Shown: in pieces, positions 3,691 through 52,394 of the stretch
Layout: every line of letters begins with the position of its first letter
Position numbering within the stretch: the stretch's first letter is position 1
Assembly: GCF_001896955.1 (NCBI RefSeq)
Contig: NZ_MKRN01000203.1
Coordinates: 1 to 54,100, forward strand
Reading direction: 5' to 3'
Length of the DNA stretch: 54,100 bases
Origin: Nitrobacter sp. 62-13
GTDB taxonomy: Bacteria > Pseudomonadota > Alphaproteobacteria > Rhizobiales > Xanthobacteraceae
Notes under the pieces: model-generated
Seen by the model: only the letters and a program-made list of their open reading frames with translations
Told to the model about the DNA's origin: nothing
The model's database searches: none
Made by a program: the position numbers and the translations under genes

Positions 3691-4172
3691 TGGGCGTCAG
3701 TGTGGATCATCGTACGTTCGTCATCACGCGCGATCTACCCGGTGGAACGGGGCACGCGTTCCGTTTCTGGTCGGATCACCGGTTGAAGCGGCTCTGGAGC
3801 GCCTGTCATCCCGATTGGCAAGTTACCGAAGACCATTTCGATTTCAGGATGGGCGGCAGCGAGCGGCTGATCTGGCGAACTCCCAGTGGTACAGAGCATG
3901 CGATGCTCGCCCACTACCTCGACATCTCACCCCGCCAGCGCATCGTCTACGCCTACGCGATGCGCTCGGGCGAAAGAAGCATCTCATCCTCCCTGGTGAC
4001 GGTCGAGTTTACGGGAGCGGCCGGCGGGACGATTATGACGTTCACAGAGCAGGCCGTTTTCAACGACGCCAGGGATGGCGACTTTCGCGAGAGCGGCACC
4101 GGCGTTGGATTCGAACGCCTCCGTGAGGTCATGGCCGCGTCGTTGATGCGCGGAGCAGCTTCGGCTGAGTGA
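3690..4172 (+). CDS. SRPBCC / AHSA1-like domain protein
   Basis: Start overlaps the upstream stop (TGATG); MGVSVDHRTFVITRDLPGGTGHAFRFWSDHRLKRLWSA...; typical partner of ArsR regulators. Confidence 0.85.
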   Translation: MGVSVDHRTFVITRDLPGGTGHAFRFWSDHRLKRLWSACHPDWQVTEDHFDFRMGGSERLIWRTPSGTEHAMLAHYLDISPRQRIVYAYAMRSGERSISSSLVTVEFTGAAGGTIMTFTEQAVFNDARDGDFRESGTGVGFERLREVMAASLMRGAASAE

Positions 4173-4483
4173 TCCCATGCCCTGTTAAGGGAAACGAGCG
4201 AAATTTTCAGCGCAAGTCACGCATGGTCCGGAAGTTGATCGCGACGAGCCGCCTTCGCCATGAGAGGACCTTCCCTCGTCGTCAGTACACGATCCCATCG
4301 GCGCACCGTGAAGTAAAGGTTAAGAAGAATATCCTGTCTCCGAGGTTCGCTGCACCGGCGTGATGCGTCGCACCTTGTCGCTATCTCAAAGTTCCTCATG
4401 CGCTGTCGCATTGACGCGCTCACGCCCTCTTTGACATAATGGCGCCGGGACAAGACAAAATGCCGGGTTAAGAGCGGAACACC

Positions 4484-4834
4484 ATGAAAAATGGGCTGTA
4501 TTCGGTTCATGTCGCCTTGCTTGACGGGCGTGTGGGCAAAGGCAGCGGAGTCGTGATGTTTCGCGACGGCAAGATCCTCGGCGGCGATGCCTATCTGTTC
4601 TATACCGGCAGTTATTTCACAAAAAGCGACGGTACGTTCAGGGGCGAGGTTCTGGTCCAGTGCCACACGCCGAGCCCTGACGGAAACCTGCTGTTCAGCA
4701 GCACTGAACCCGTGGGCGTCGGCGTGACCGGCACATTCACCGATACGACCGGCACGATGAACGGCACGGCTCTGGTCGGAAAGGCCAGCCAGATTTTTCA
4801 GGCGACGCTGCGCAAATTGGCCGATACGGACTGA
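4484..4834 (+). CDS. GrlR-like regulatory protein
   Basis: MKNGLYSVHVALLDGRVGKGSGVVMFRDGKILGGDAYLFYTGSY... matches GrlR family organisation. Confidence 0.75.
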   Translation: MKNGLYSVHVALLDGRVGKGSGVVMFRDGKILGGDAYLFYTGSYFTKSDGTFRGEVLVQCHTPSPDGNLLFSSTEPVGVGVTGTFTDTTGTMNGTALVGKASQIFQATLRKLADTD

Positions 4835-4931
4835 CGCTCCGACGCTCGCGATTTTGAGGCCAAAGTCCATCGCACGCACCTTCGCTGCGCATTTGCCGCG
4901 AACAACGCTGGGTATACGCAAGTCCGGGCTG

Positions 4932-7613
4932 CTACTCCGCTGCCAGCTCCATCGGAGCGATGCGTGGCAAAACGATGCGAATCCGCGTGCCCTCTCCGGA
5001 TCCCGAGTCGAGATCGAGGCGCCCGCCGAGACGGTTCGTCACGATGTTGTAAACGATATGCAAGCCGAGACCGGTGCCACCCTGATCGCGCCGCGTGGTA
5101 AAGAACGGGTCGAAAGCCTTGCGCCGGACATCGGGACTCATGCCGCATCCGTTATCGGAAAACAGGATCTCGACATTGTCCTGGTTGACTTCCCGTACGT
5201 TGATATCAACCGCGCCGCCCTCGCCGTCCGGAAACGCATGCGCCAACGAGTTGAGAAACAGATTGGTGAGCACCTGCCCGTAAGGGCCGGGATAGCTGTT
5301 CATCATAAGATTGGGTTCGCAATCGACGGTCAGCGTCACGTTTTGTTTGCGCAGGCCCGGACGCAGACTCATGACGACCTGCTCGGTGAGTTCGCCGAGG
5401 TCGAAAATCCGCTTGTCCGAATAATTACGATCGGCGGCAACCTGCTTGAACGATTGAACCAGTTCGGCCGCGCGATTGAGATTGGCGACAAGCTGCGAGG
5501 CCGCATCGCGATTGGTCGCGACAAAATCGTTCAGGCTCGAGCGCCGCAGCTCGCCGCGTTCGACTTCCTCGGCGAACACCGCGATCTTGCGCTCCAGGGA
5601 CGACGCTACTGTCAGGCTGATGCCGACAGGATTGTTGACTTCGTGAGCGACGCCCGCCACGAGACGGCCGAGCGCCGCGAGTTTCTCCGCCTCGATCAAC
5701 GAGTTCTGGGTCTCGCGCAGGTTGCGCAGCGCCGCTTCGGCCGCATCCTTGGCCTGCCGCATTTCCTGCTCGTTGCGCTTGCGGTCGGCGATGTCGAGCG
5801 CGACCGTGACGATGTTCTCGATACGACCATCGGCACCACGGATCGGCAGCTTGTTGACCAGCCATTGTCGCATCGCGCCCGACGAATCCTCGTATTCCTC
5901 TTCGTAGAAGCCAAGCTCCTTGCCGCTCTCAAGAACACGCTTGTCGTTTTCGTCGGTCTTGGCAGCTCCGTAACGCGACATCAGATCGCTCGTCGTTCGG
6001 CCGATCGCATCTGCGGGCTCGATCCCGAAGATGCCTGCCATGTAACGGTTCATCAGCACATAACGCAGGTCGGCGTTCTTGACGTTGATCACCGCCGGCA
6101 CGGTGTCGACGACGAGTTGCAGCACGCGCCGTCCTTCCGCGATCGCCTCCTCGGCCCGCCGCTGGTCAGTAATGTCGCGAACCACGCCTTCATAGCGAAC
6201 GATAAGACCGTTCTCATCGCGCACGGCGGTCGCGCTGTCGGAAAGCCAGAGAATGCTGCCGTCGCGGTGACGGACCTGATACTCGAACTCGCGAACCGTC
6301 CCCTCGCGTTCCATCCGCAACTGGTATTCAACGCGCGCCTTCGGGTCGATATAGATCGTCTGCGCGATATCGCCGATATCGCGGATCAGATCTTCTGACG
6401 TGTCATAGCCCATGATCCGCGCCAACGCCGGATTGGCGTCAAGCAATTGACCGGCCGGCGTCGTGACATAGATGCCATCGACCGATCCTTCGAACAGCTT
6501 GCGGTAGCTCTCCTCGGCGAGCCGCTGCTCGGAGAGCGCGCGAACGGCAGCTTCCCGCGCCGAGTCGGCTTCAGCAAGCGTCCGGCGAAACACTTCGGCG
6601 GCGCGCGCGATATCGCCGATCTCGTTATCGACGTGCGTTGCGGGAATCGAGGTTTCCTTTTCGCCGCCCGCCACTCTCCGGATCGCTCGCGCGATGGCCT
6701 TCAAGGGCCGGATCGTGCGCCGCACCACGAACATGGCGGCAAGCAAGCCGATTATGATTCCCGCACTGCCGAAAACGATGCTCTGCCATTTGGTTTCGGC
6801 TAGCGTCCGCGCGAAATCGCGCGACAGCACCTGCTCGCGCTGCGCGCTGAGTTCGCGCAACAATTTGGTGACCCGGCCGATCAGCCTGCCTTCGGTGCCC
6901 AACACATCCCGGTCGATATCAGCGATCTGACGCTCCCGCAGGGATATTGCGATAACGGCGTCGGCATAGGCCTCGACGGCATCACGTACCGCAGGTGTGC
7001 CGATCCGGATGGCGCGCATCTTTTCCGCCGATTGCTCTGCAGCAGCGGGGTCATGCCCGAGCAGGGCTGCGGCGACATCGCTCTGGGCCCGAAACAACGT
7101 TTTTGAGGCCAACTGATCGGCAGCCTGCTCGGTTACGGCTTCGAGCTTCTCGCGAAGCCGGGGGAGAGTTTCGATCAACTGCGCGCGGCTTGCGATCAGG
7201 TCACTCACCCGGGCGATACCGCTACGGTAAGCTTCCAACCGTGTCGTAACGCCGTCGATCATCTCCTGCTGTTCCGGCGCAAGCTCGATGCGGGTCTTCT
7301 TGAGCACCTCATTGAGCGATGATGCGGCTCCCCACACCTGGCCGGACTGCGCGCCGGGATCGGTGACGTAGTCTCGCGCTGCAAGACGAAGCTCGTTCAT
7401 GCGGCGATCGATTTCCTCGGCAAGGTCGCCGACCTTGTCCAGCCGCTGCAACTCGGCGAAGGTATTATCGAGATGACGGGTCGCGACAACATTGGCCACG
7501 CTGGTTATCGCGATGATCGACAGCACCAGCAAAAATCCGCCGAAGGTAATCTGACCGATCGACAGCGATGACGATCGCATCCGCTGAACAAGTGCTCCGA
7601 ACCTGGATTGCAT
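4932..7613 (-). CDS. Hybrid-sensor-type histidine kinase (TM, HAMP, two PAS/PAC, HisKA-like, HATPase)
   Basis: 893 aa; PAS motifs, VAGVAHEVNNPVGISLTVASSLE H-box, DNGCGMSPDVRRKAFDPFFTTRRDQGGTGLGLHIV. Confidence 0.9.
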   Translation of the reverse strand: MQSRFGALVQRMRSSSLSIGQITFGGFLLVLSIIAITSVANVVATRHLDNTFAELQRLDKVGDLAEEIDRRMNELRLAARDYVTDPGAQSGQVWGAASSLNEVLKKTRIELAPEQQEMIDGVTTRLEAYRSGIARVSDLIASRAQLIETLPRLREKLEAVTEQAADQLASKTLFRAQSDVAAALLGHDPAAAEQSAEKMRAIRIGTPAVRDAVEAYADAVIAISLRERQIADIDRDVLGTEGRLIGRVTKLLRELSAQREQVLSRDFARTLAETKWQSIVFGSAGIIIGLLAAMFVVRRTIRPLKAIARAIRRVAGGEKETSIPATHVDNEIGDIARAAEVFRRTLAEADSAREAAVRALSEQRLAEESYRKLFEGSVDGIYVTTPAGQLLDANPALARIMGYDTSEDLIRDIGDIAQTIYIDPKARVEYQLRMEREGTVREFEYQVRHRDGSILWLSDSATAVRDENGLIVRYEGVVRDITDQRRAEEAIAEGRRVLQLVVDTVPAVINVKNADLRYVLMNRYMAGIFGIEPADAIGRTTSDLMSRYGAAKTDENDKRVLESGKELGFYEEEYEDSSGAMRQWLVNKLPIRGADGRIENIVTVALDIADRKRNEQEMRQAKDAAEAALRNLRETQNSLIEAEKLAALGRLVAGVAHEVNNPVGISLTVASSLERKIAVFAEEVERGELRRSSLNDFVATNRDAASQLVANLNRAAELVQSFKQVAADRNYSDKRIFDLGELTEQVVMSLRPGLRKQNVTLTVDCEPNLMMNSYPGPYGQVLTNLFLNSLAHAFPDGEGGAVDINVREVNQDNVEILFSDNGCGMSPDVRRKAFDPFFTTRRDQGGTGLGLHIVYNIVTNRLGGRLDLDSGSGEGTRIRIVLPRIAPMELAAE

Positions 7614-34385: not shown

Positions 34386-34464
34386 CTAGTACCGCCGATT
34401 TGAAATTCCTGCACCACTTGCAGCGGGTTCGTCTTCGGGAATTTCAAATCGAAAGCGGTACCAG
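34386..34464. repeat. Inverted-repeat element A
   Basis: CTAGTACCGCCGATTTGAAATTCC (34386-34409) vs reverse complement of 34438-34464, CTGGTACCGCTTTCGATTTGAAATTCC; inner hairpin CTGCA-CCACT-TGCAG. Confidence 0.85.
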
Positions 34465-34478
34465 AATCATAAAGTTGC

Positions 34479-34553
34479 CTAGTACCCTTTGCTTTCCGAA
34501 GTTCGTTAAGGGAGTGTTGCGGTGTCTCACGAACTTCGGAAAGCGGGTACTAG
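34479..34553. repeat. Inverted-repeat element B
   Basis: CTAGTACCCTTTGCTTTCCGAAGTTCGT (34479-34506) vs reverse complement of 34529-34553, CTAGTACCCGCTTTCCGAAGTTCGT. Confidence 0.88.
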
Positions 34554-34603
34554 TGTCCTTCACCGTTTAACGGAAACGGCGAAAGGCTTCAGACTTTTGA
34601 TTT

Positions 34604-34650
34604 GACGCGTTTTCTTCACGCGAACCGAATTTCACTTCGCTCGAAAACGC
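34604..34650. repeat. Third palindromic repeat (GCGTTTTC...GAAAACGC)
   Basis: GACGCGTTTTCTTCACGCGAACCGAATTTCACTTCGCTCGAAAACGC; 8-bp terminal inverted repeat. Confidence 0.6.
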
Positions 34651-49380: not shown

Positions 49381-49581
49381 ATGCATAGCGACATACGAGA
49401 GCTGACCGCAGGCGAACTCAATGCGGTCGGCGGCGGCGAGATCACCGTCGTCGCCGACAAGGACTATGTTGGAATCGAGGTCAGGGTCGGCGGTTACGGC
49501 TTCGCCGTCTGGGTGACCGGCGGTCAGGTCTGCGGCGCGACCTACACGCCTCACCACAACGGCGGGACGTGCATTCCCTGA
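49381..49581 (+). CDS. Small double-glycine-leader (RiPP/bacteriocin-like) peptide
   Basis: MHSDIRELTAGELNAVGGGEITVVADKDYVGIEVRVGGYGFAVWVTGGQVCGATYTPHHNGGTCIP; AGGAG RBS ('gacaggagcgacagATG'). Confidence 0.75.
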   Translation: MHSDIRELTAGELNAVGGGEITVVADKDYVGIEVRVGGYGFAVWVTGGQVCGATYTPHHNGGTCIP

Positions 49582-49629: not shown

Positions 49630-50961
49630 TCACGGCGCGTTTCCGGTCGCGCAGGCGCTGTCCGCGCGGGCGCGTTGCAAGAACCCCTTGGCCAGTGCGT
49701 GATAGACGCCTTCCTTGCAGACCAGCCGCGAACTGCCATAGGCAATCAGCGCCGCCGCCATCAGCGGCACCACCATGGCGTGATTATCGGTCATTTCCGT
49801 CACGATCACGAAGGCGGTGATCGGCGCCTGCACCACGCCCGCGAAATAGGACACCATGCCGAGCAGCAGGATTGCGCCCAGCGGCGTGCCCGGAAAAAAA
49901 TGGGCCACGTTGGATCCGAGGCCCGCGCCAGCCGCGAGCGAGGGTGAAAAGATACCGCCGGGAATGCCGCTCACGGTCGAGAGCAGGGTTGCGAGCAGCT
50001 TCAGCAATCCGAAACTCTCGGGTAGCGGCGCGCCGCTCTCCAACGCGTGTTTCACCTGCGCATAGCCCGTGCCGTAGATCGTGTCGCCGGACAGGTATCC
50101 GCACACGGCGACGCCGAGCCCGCATGCGAACGCAAACGGAAGCGGATGGCGCTTGATGAGCGAGCCGAGCCGTCCCGGAAGCCCGAACGCCAGCAGGATC
50201 ACAAGACGGCTGAACAATCCGCCGGCAAGGCCGCCGACGACGCCGCAGATCGGCACCGCCAGCCAGTCGACGCCATGGCCGAGCGTGGTCGCGGTGTGGC
50301 CGAAGTAGGCGTAATTCCCGACCAGCGCCAGCGAGGTCAGCCCGGCCGCGATCACGGTGCCGATGATCAGGCCGCTGGTGCGAACCTCGAATGCGCGGCT
50401 CATTTCCTCGATGCCGAAGACGATTCCCGCAAGCGGCGTGTTGAAGGCCGCGGCGACGCCGGCAGCCGCTCCCGCAAGGATCAGTCCGGGCTGGCGGCGC
50501 GGCGACATCCGCCCGATCGCGAACATGACGGACGCGCCGACCTGCACCGTCGGCCCCTCGCGCCCGACGGAGGCGCCGCAAAGCAATCCCAGCACCGTCA
50601 GAAGAATCTTTCCCACGGCGATGCGGAACGAAACCAGCCGGCCGCGCGCCTCGTAGTCGCCGAGCTGACGCGCGGCGATGGCCTGCGGAATGCCGCTGCC
50701 TTGCGAATTCGGAAAGAAGCGCGAGGTAAGAAACACCGACAGCACGAATCCGAGCGGAGTGACGACGAACGACGCGTAGCGCCATTTCTCGAGCAGCCGC
50801 GCGAACAGGAACTGGGCCAGGTCCGAGGCCTGCGTCAATCCCACCGCAGCCGCGCCGACGGCAAGGCCGCCCGCGACAAAAATGACCCGCCGCTGCCACC
50901 GGGTCGAGATGACCCGGACCGATCGCAACTGCCGTTCGGTGAGGTGCGGTCTCTGCATCAT
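49630..50961 (-). CDS. ClC family chloride channel/antiporter
   Basis: [42 protein letters not shown] motifs; start overlaps serS stop. Confidence 0.95.
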
Positions 50962-52394
50962 CCCTCGCGGCCGATCGCCTTGAGGCCGCCCATATAGGGC
51001 TGCAGCACGTCGGGCACGGCGATGGAGCCGTCGGCCTGCTGATAGGTCTCCATCACCGCGATCAGCGCGCGGCCGACCGCGGTGCCGGAGCCGTTCAGCG
51101 TATGCACGAAGCGCGGCTTGCCGTCGTTTGCCCGATAGCGCGCGTCCATGCGCCGCGCCTGGAAATCGCCGCACACCGAGCAGGACGAAATCTCGCGGTA
51201 AGCGCCGCCCTCACCCTGCCCCGGCATCCACACCTCGATGTCGTAGGTCTTTTGCGAAGCGAAGCCCATGTCGCCGGTGCACAGCGTCATCACGCGGTAA
51301 TGCAGATCGAGCCGGCGCAGCACTTCTTCCGCGCATGACAACATGCGCTCGTGCTCGTCTTTTGATGCTTCCGGCGTCGTGATCGAGACCAGTTCGACCT
51401 TGCTGAACTGGTGCTGGCGGATCATGCCGCGGGTGTCGCGCCCCGCCGCGCCCGCTTCGGCGCGGAAACACGGCGTCAGCGCGGTGAAGCGCAGCGGCAG
51501 TTCTTTTTCATCGAGGATGGATTCGCGAACGAGGTTAGTGAGCGGGACTTCGGCGGTGGGAATGAGCCAATGATGGTTTACTAACGATTCTTTTGAGATA
51601 AATTCGCGCGCTTTGTCCAATCGGTCTAACGTTAATTTTAGTACTCCGTTTTCAACCCATTGGGGAAACCGGAAGTTGATCATGTGAATTTGGGCAGCCA
51701 TCTCTTCGAATCGATCCAAAGAAGATGAAGCCGCGAATTGATCCTCCCGAAACTTCGGCAATTGCGCCGTGCCGAACATCGCATCGTCGCGCACAAGCAG
51801 CGGCGGATTGACTTCGGTGTAGCCGTGCTCGCCGGTATGGACATCGAGGAAGAATTGCCCGATGGCGCGTTCGAGCCGCGCCAGTCCTCGTTTCAGCACG
51901 ACGAAGCGCGCGCCGGACAGTTTCGCCGCCGCCTCGAAATCCATGTCGCCGAGCGCGCCGCCGAGATCGTCATGCGGTTTCGGCGTGAATGCGTAGTCGC
52001 GTTTTTTTCCGAAAATATGATGCTGCACGTTGCCGTGCTCGTCGGCACCCTCGGGCACCTCGTCGAGCGGCAGGTTCGGAATCTCGGCCAGCGCCTTTCT
52101 CAACTCCTCGTCCGCCGTCTTCGCCGCGGTTTCCATTTGCGGCATGGTGGTCTTGAGTTCGGCGACCTCGGCCATCAGCTTCGCGGCGCGCGCCTCATCC
52201 TTGGCCTTCTTGGCCTCGCCGATTTCCCTTGAGGCCGCGTTGCGCCGCGCCTGCGCCTGCTCCGACACCAGAATCGCCGCGCGGCGCTTCTCGTCGATCG
52301 CGAGCAGCGACGGCGAGGCGGGAGCCAGCCCGCGCCGCTTCAGCGCTTCATCGAATGCTTGCGGATTGTCGCGGATCGCCTTGATGTCGTGCAT
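50958..52394 (-). CDS. serS: Serine--tRNA ligase with an unusual internal insertion
   Basis: [23 protein letters not shown]...[60 protein letters not shown]...[15 protein letters not shown]...[40 protein letters not shown]. Confidence 0.96.
51570..51734 (-). other. AT-rich in-frame insertion-like segment within serS (55 codons)
   Basis: Hand count 70 G+C of 165 (about 42%); TTA/CTA/TCA/AAA codons; encodes [55 protein letters not shown] between DQF and WLIPTAEV. Confidence 0.7.

Follow-up and report, generated by a model that had tools for sequence, protein, structure and literature searches.

Why should a seryl-tRNA synthetase (SerRS), an enzyme of the kind that serves as an example of slow, vertically inherited core genes, carry an AT-rich block of codons directly in front of its active-site loop, and how did the block come to be there? 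The question is raised by the serS gene in a 54,100-nucleotide stretch of DNA from the nitrite-oxidising bacterium Nitrobacter (hereafter the window; its genome is referred to as G000). The initial annotation of the window described the block as foreign in composition and proposed that the lineage had gained it recently, either by gene-internal recombination or as a coding mobile element. Here, we compare SerRS as read from ~130 genomes, with one genome per species, and find at this site an insert that is replaced faster than species diverge.

serS and its AT-rich segment

The following features of the gene are referred to throughout the text:

50958–52394 (including the stop codon), minus strand: serS, seryl-tRNA synthetase, 478 aa, with the Pfam domains Seryl_tRNA_N and tRNA-synt_2b
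52080–52334, minus strand: coiled-coil tRNA-binding arm, residues ~21–105, normal in the window SerRS
51735–51764, minus strand: conserved 10-residue block directly before the insert
51570–51734, minus strand: variable insert, SerRS residues 221–275, G+C 0.42, GC3 0.44, modelled as strand-helix-hairpin-helix-strand
51546–51569, minus strand: conserved WLIPTAEV block directly after the insert

The gene order tatB-tatC-serS is common to the window and its congeners G008, G004 and G002, and we therefore regard the window serS as the housekeeping copy. The WLIPTAEV block is the serine-binding TxE loop of the enzyme. The insert in front of it (51570–51734) comprises exactly 55 codons, in frame, with 42.4% G+C, compared with ~0.65 for serS outside the insert and 0.62 for serS with the insert included. 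When all 165-nt windows of the 54.1 kb are scanned (mean G+C 0.624, sd 0.051), the minimum (0.412) starts at 51561, on the insert, and the coordinates first assigned to the AT-rich segment are exact. The codons TTA, CTA and GTA, noted at the outset as rare elsewhere, are within serS all confined to the insert (3, 1 and 2 occurrences, respectively, and none in the rest of the gene), whereas CTG is absent from the insert and occurs 21 times outside it. With the G+C minimum of the window and the foreign codons both falling on the insert, its description as foreign in composition is borne out. The peptide itself required a correction: the 53 letters originally read had missed two residues, the insert being 55 aa long and beginning AASSSLDRF; the rest of the reading stands. 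The statement that SerRS of the E. coli type has only a short linker here also proved right. Bacterial structures in the PDB have ~6–15 residues at this place, and when phmmer aligns the window SerRS with its counterparts from P. aeruginosa, K. pneumoniae and E. coli, the match is interrupted exactly from residue 221 to residues 268–276.

Elsewhere in the window, positions 34439–34605 are the sole other spot at which a 165-nt stretch falls as low as 45% G+C. Downstream of serS and a ClC channel, on the plus strand, positions 49381–49581 hold a small ORF (MHSDIRELTAGELNAVGGG...) whose leader is of the double-glycine, bacteriocin-like type, and a homologous stretch appears conserved in G008 (L164).

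Position and predicted fold of the insert

In an AlphaFold2 model built on a 49-sequence alignment (mean pLDDT 88 for the full window SerRS), the insert is predicted to form a strand (residues 221–225), a helix (228–242), a hairpin (~246–252), a second helix (256–267) and a return strand (272–277), with pLDDT values of 78–93 as means of 10-residue blocks. The model portrays the window insert as a confident helix-hairpin-helix, seated on the loop leading into the TxE strand, where the initial annotation had placed it. Modelled alone (pLDDT 77), the insert gave no Foldseek match in the PDB with E below 1.

The same catalytic-domain loop, just before the TxE strand, harbors insertion II of eukaryotic SerRS (human G254–N261); when the window protein is aligned with human SerRS, the match picks up again at its residue 270, the counterpart of human residue ~260. 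In higher eukaryotes insertion II is reported to lie near the active site and, in human SerRS, to be negligible for aminoacylation (PMC10817482), and human SerRS uses it for DNA binding, a non-translational function (PMC4057782). We infer that the bacterial enzyme, too, can probably gain surface at this loop without harm to catalysis. In position, the insert thus resembles the stable lineage-specific insertions of aminoacyl-tRNA synthetases (aaRS). Eukaryotic insertion II, however, is 8 aa long and lineage-stable, whereas the inserts of Nitrobacter and other Hyphomicrobiales span 37–97 aa and are unrelated between sister species.

Two alternative explanations draw on this structural setting. 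The tip of the loop might tolerate any foldable peptide, with illegitimate recombination bringing in foreign AT-rich DNA, no arms race involved, and differences between inserts that are near-neutral and retained for folding or solubility alone; the negligible part played by insertion II in aminoacylation favors such tolerance. Alternatively, the insert might be a docking domain for a lineage-specific partner (a tRNA-modifying enzyme, a regulator or another synthetase), with turnover that follows the partners rather than any escape; the DNA binding of human insertion II is in keeping with this, as are the predicted folding of the inserts and the constraint on them.

Inserts at a single site among relatives

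In most Hyphomicrobiales outside the family of the window, the DxF block is separated from the LIPTAEV block by 6 residues (e.g., RTTDGR). At the insert site, Bradyrhizobium has a mostly stable loop of 20–24 aa (WAIKGELLAAPDHERLKTERL and variants), Tardiphaga, some Afipia and some Rhodopseudomonas have 11–12 aa (AAGAIGSGGEGY type), and ~45 genomes have inserts of 31–97 aa. All readable Nitrobacter genomes (G001–G006 and G008) carry an insert of 52–76 aa at the exact site, mostly of unrelated sequence and with only a few related pairs, while the insert of G007 is truncated yet homologous to that of G001. The proposal of a recent gain by this lineage is not supported by the comparison, since every readable Nitrobacter has an insert there and it is the sequences that differ. 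Nor is this an ancient loop of the same length and composition in all close relatives that tracks their phylogeny: lengths and sequences vary, the insert is not conserved within the lineage, and it does not follow the gene tree. An all-against-all phmmer comparison of 43 inserts yielded approximately eight multi-member families and many singletons; G122, G222, G064 and G007 joined insert families later, from further genome searches.

This distribution bears on two of the alternatives. A chimeric assembly or contamination could be suspected from the state of the window genome, which is assembled in 215 contigs and is 89.8% complete. However, inserts of the same kind occur in G004, a single-contig 3.4 Mb congener, and in many further assemblies, where the reading frame is invariably kept and the codon boundary is the same, and G122 holds a homologous insert; refuted by independent genomes, an artefact retains a negligible probability. 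For a loop that simply tolerates insertions the distribution cuts both ways: Rhodopseudomonas and Afipia have a mixture of long, mid and empty alleles, as tolerance would allow, but an insert is kept in every readable Nitrobacter even though most of them differ.

Replacement between sisters and sharing across genera

In a maximum-likelihood tree of the SerRS core (59 rows, arm and insert removed), the sister of G000 is G006 (support 100/89). The flanks of these two proteins are 94/98% identical in amino acids, and their inserts are not alignable. Between G000 and G122, which belongs to a different genus, the flanks are 74/84% identical and the insert is 73% identical by global alignment (80% over the local match); between G000 and its congener G008, the insert is 38% identical and the flanks 91–92%. 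Not one of the seven multi-member insert families in the core tree forms a clade. Long, mid and short alleles are interleaved inside Rhodopseudomonas, Afipia and Bradyrhizobium; Rhodopseudomonas AAP120, with an insert of 76 aa, is sister to R. palustris XCP, with 12 aa, and one 97 aa insert is nested within Bradyrhizobium.

The insert is swapped wholesale between sister species and shared between genera at a fixed site, and conserved flanks, unrelated inserts in sisters and related inserts across genera together make up the pattern of an exchangeable hypervariable segment. The suggestion of gene-internal recombination is accordingly upheld as far as replacement within serS is concerned, with homologous recombination as the presumptive route. 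Next to the insert, the core gene shows only a slight rise in synonymous divergence (0.55 over the 10 codons closest to the insert on its 5' side), which argues that the import tracts are short or have been eroded.

Turnover of this kind suggests that something forces the surface of the enzyme to keep changing. A housekeeping partner, by comparison, should not change completely between sisters whose SerRS are 94–98% identical, and no co-encoded partner is seen in the conserved tatC-serS neighbourhood; we consider a docking domain quite improbable. The recurrence of related inserts at the same site in distant genera also speaks against a loop that accepts whatever DNA arrives.

Composition and selection

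GC3 averages 0.55 over 43 long inserts and 0.82 over the sequence that flanks them (Wilcoxon p = 7.5e-12). Linkers 9–24 aa long resemble their flanks in GC content, and some inserts of more distant taxa (G017, G049, L150 and G036) have normal GC and may have been inherited vertically. A GC3 near 0.5 fits DNA that is unadapted to its host, as would be expected of foreign sequence captured by a permissive site. Within insert families, however, the protein sequence is conserved and synonymous change is close to saturation: pN is 0.16 and pS 0.97 for the G000/G122 insert, pN is 0.12 and pS 0.91 for the G001/G007 insert (C-terminal flank pS 0.42), and dN is 0.14 and dS 1.25 for the G032/G222 insert (dN/dS ~0.11). 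The inserts are under purifying selection within families and are therefore functional protein rather than decaying captured DNA, which speaks against near-neutral differences. That synonymous divergence is higher within the insert may reflect a greater age of the alleles than of the gene around them, weaker codon selection on them, or both.

Searches for a source

Outside serS, the window insert has no homologue in its own genome as assembled, in 300 genomes of the family, in 399 genomes of the phylum or in the viral contigs of IMG/VR, the last of which were searched with the window insert family only; in its own genome, only scraps of 14–24 nt occur beyond the serS copy. Nine other inserts searched against 389 family genomes gave 13 matches, of which those inspected lie in serS and the rest coincide with known serS positions, and 21 inserts had no homologue among plasmids and phages. 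Within the databases and genomes searched, the inserts have no homologue outside serS.

These searches weigh on the second route originally proposed, a coding mobile element inserted in frame in the manner of Rickettsia palindromic elements (RPEs) or other coding MITEs. The insert is short, coding, in frame and foreign in composition, and RPEs do insert in frame in housekeeping genes (PMC10969869). Unlike such elements, it has no copies at unrelated loci and no palindrome or terminal inverted repeat, and many unrelated sequences occupy one fixed site rather than one sequence occupying many. Because no homologue of the window insert turned up outside serS in any of the sets searched, a mobile-element origin is unsupported for it, and we hold such an origin to be very improbable. 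The failure to find source DNA in the searched genomes, plasmids, phages and viral contigs also counts against illegitimate recombination into a tolerant loop tip.

The initial observation that the segment shows neither a terminal palindrome nor an intein motif stands, with only imperfect inverted repeats of 12–15 nt nearby, and its RNA folding is unremarkable (z -1.19). Inteins have splicing motifs, are followed by C, S or T and are typically over 130 aa in length; the insert, with its 55 aa, an A at its start, a W after its end and no Pfam or NCBIfam intein match, was rejected as an intein. A 16 nt match in the insert (TTTGGATCGATTCGAA) to a palindrome (ATGGTTTTGGATCGATTCGATCCAAAACCAT) that is repeated ~9 times per Mb in congeners is absent from the G122 homologue and is probably due to chance.

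No convincing domain hit was obtained for 45 inserts in Pfam and NCBIfam, or for a few inserts in PHROGs and PADLOC. The only lead comes from a family other than that of the window (G049, G051, L081, L152 and L153), two members of which score below threshold against the VbhA antitoxin domain of Pfam (E 3e-4, 21.1 bits vs a cut-off of 25.9), and a PDB profile search gave no corroboration. The second SerRS of G051 was considered as an insert donor and rejected, being a distant paralogue beside biosynthetic-type genes. It is located in L180 (G051:C28) at ~4115–5776, next to radical-SAM, aldo/keto reductase, dioxygenase and adenylation-like genes, and the region is possibly a self-resistance or seryl-tRNA-dependent biosynthetic cluster.

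A probable explanation of the turnover

We think it probable that the insert is a hypervariable, exchangeable surface cassette of SerRS, swapped by recombination and kept diverse by an external recogniser. The window segment would then be one allele of an exchangeable insert domain at the hairpin tip between the LPKF block and the TxE strand. The alleles would be folded modules of 37–97 aa, belonging to many old families and housed in the ordinary SerRS of Nitrobacter and many other Hyphomicrobiales. Their transfer between strains and genera takes the form of replacement inside serS, for which the simplest route would be homologous recombination in the conserved flanks, which encode the TxE loop and the LPKF block; replacement within the gene would leave sisters holding unrelated inserts and distant genera holding related ones. 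Once acquired, an insert is kept by purifying selection. The turnover itself would reflect pressure from a recogniser of the SerRS surface (for example a phage protein, a protein toxin or some other interfering partner), and a new insert would alter the recognised face while leaving catalysis untouched.

Lineage-specific synthetase insertions and exchangeable recognition segments are each already known. HsdS target-recognition domains and hypervariable phage-receptor loops are exchangeable specificity regions, and the SerRS insert shares with them a conserved frame, wholesale replacement of a segment, cross-species alleles and a low-GC variable part; here, however, the segment belongs to an essential cytosolic enzyme of translation, in which it is not known to have any recognition role. 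The self-immunity aaRS variants directed against Trojan-horse antibiotics are likewise synthetases altered under inhibitor pressure (agrocin 84 and LeuRS, PMC5059758; albomycin and SerRS, PMC9032320), but those are duplicate, resistant enzymes set against small molecules, whereas in the window genome the swapped surface domain is part of the sole housekeeping copy found. In the literature searched, we found no description of a hypervariable exchangeable insert in a housekeeping SerRS or AspRS. The existence of cross-genus serS alleles and their fast replacement imply strong, so far unnamed selection on the translation machinery.

Other synthetases and other genes

ThrRS and ValRS of the genus have no internal variable block and LeuRS has no large one. 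AspRS, by contrast, has a hotspot of its own, at which ~7 of 60 relatives have a long insert:

aspS hotspot at the GLGYI-(W/F)RE...GA loop: L212/L276 (G006), L270 (G013), L271 (G024), L273 (G037), L274 (G038), L275 (G007) and L277 (G002)

In this GAD-domain region, a loop of 9–12 aa is replaced by AT-rich inserts of 36–60 aa in G006, G007, G013, G024, G037 and G038; the AspRS of G022 shows a similar break, and that of G002 has a divergent AT-rich segment through the GAD-loop region, plus ~41 aa. Where measured, GC3 is 0.30–0.58 for the AspRS inserts vs 0.62–0.80 for the gene. One insert family is common to G007 and G024, which belong to different genera, and the AspRS inserts are otherwise mostly unrelated. 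In the SerRS of G004 (L016/L165) the coiled-coil arm is replaced by a divergent AT-rich arm (GC3 0.54), with ~0.45 identity to congeners in the arm as against 0.94–0.97 in the core; the best match of this arm among 298 genomes of the order is 46% identical. The IleRS of G005 has a divergent AT-rich stretch in its editing region.

An unbiased screen of G004 against G002, covering 0.8 Mb and 149 further ortholog pairs, turned up internal divergent segments of at least 25 aa in four genes: aspS, two genes with repeat-like insertions and one with a low-complexity linker. Only aspS had an AT-rich, non-repeat segment comparable to the SerRS insert, and serS fell below the identity cut-off of the screen because of its own two replaced segments. 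In the sample screened, the occurrence of replaced segments is biased towards aaRS. An effect present in SerRS and AspRS and absent from ThrRS, ValRS and LeuRS is a further argument against a loop that merely tolerates insertions, and we regard that account as rather unlikely.

If diversity is maintained by an external recogniser, the rarer changes in the AspRS GAD-domain loop, the SerRS arm and the one IleRS editing region would fit the same pressure on synthetase surfaces, and the involvement of two synthetases together with a swappable tRNA-binding arm would fit the binding of a factor to the synthetase surface or to the complex with tRNA. More tentatively, aaRS (SerRS above all and AspRS next) might be direct targets in a protein-level conflict with phage or competitor factors that bind the synthetase, escape being provided by a Hyphomicrobiales-wide pool of cassettes. 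Should an adversary be found, the SerRS case would come closer to a new kind of conflict, and the insert offers a handle in the search for phage proteins, toxins or antibiotics directed at SerRS or AspRS. Caution is also warranted in the use of serS and aspS as phylogenetic markers in Hyphomicrobiales.

The genus may in addition have repeat-like (RPE-like) coding insertions that are unlike the SerRS inserts in look. GC-rich, repeat-like, in-frame insertions follow QWFIAMD in IleRS (e.g., SPPPARGGEGSGVGS...PSPTRGEG) in L239 (G001), L241 (G005) and L233 (G007), and similar ones are seen in ORFs of G004 and G002 that resemble adenosylcobalamin (B12)-dependent ribonucleotide reductase and UvrA.
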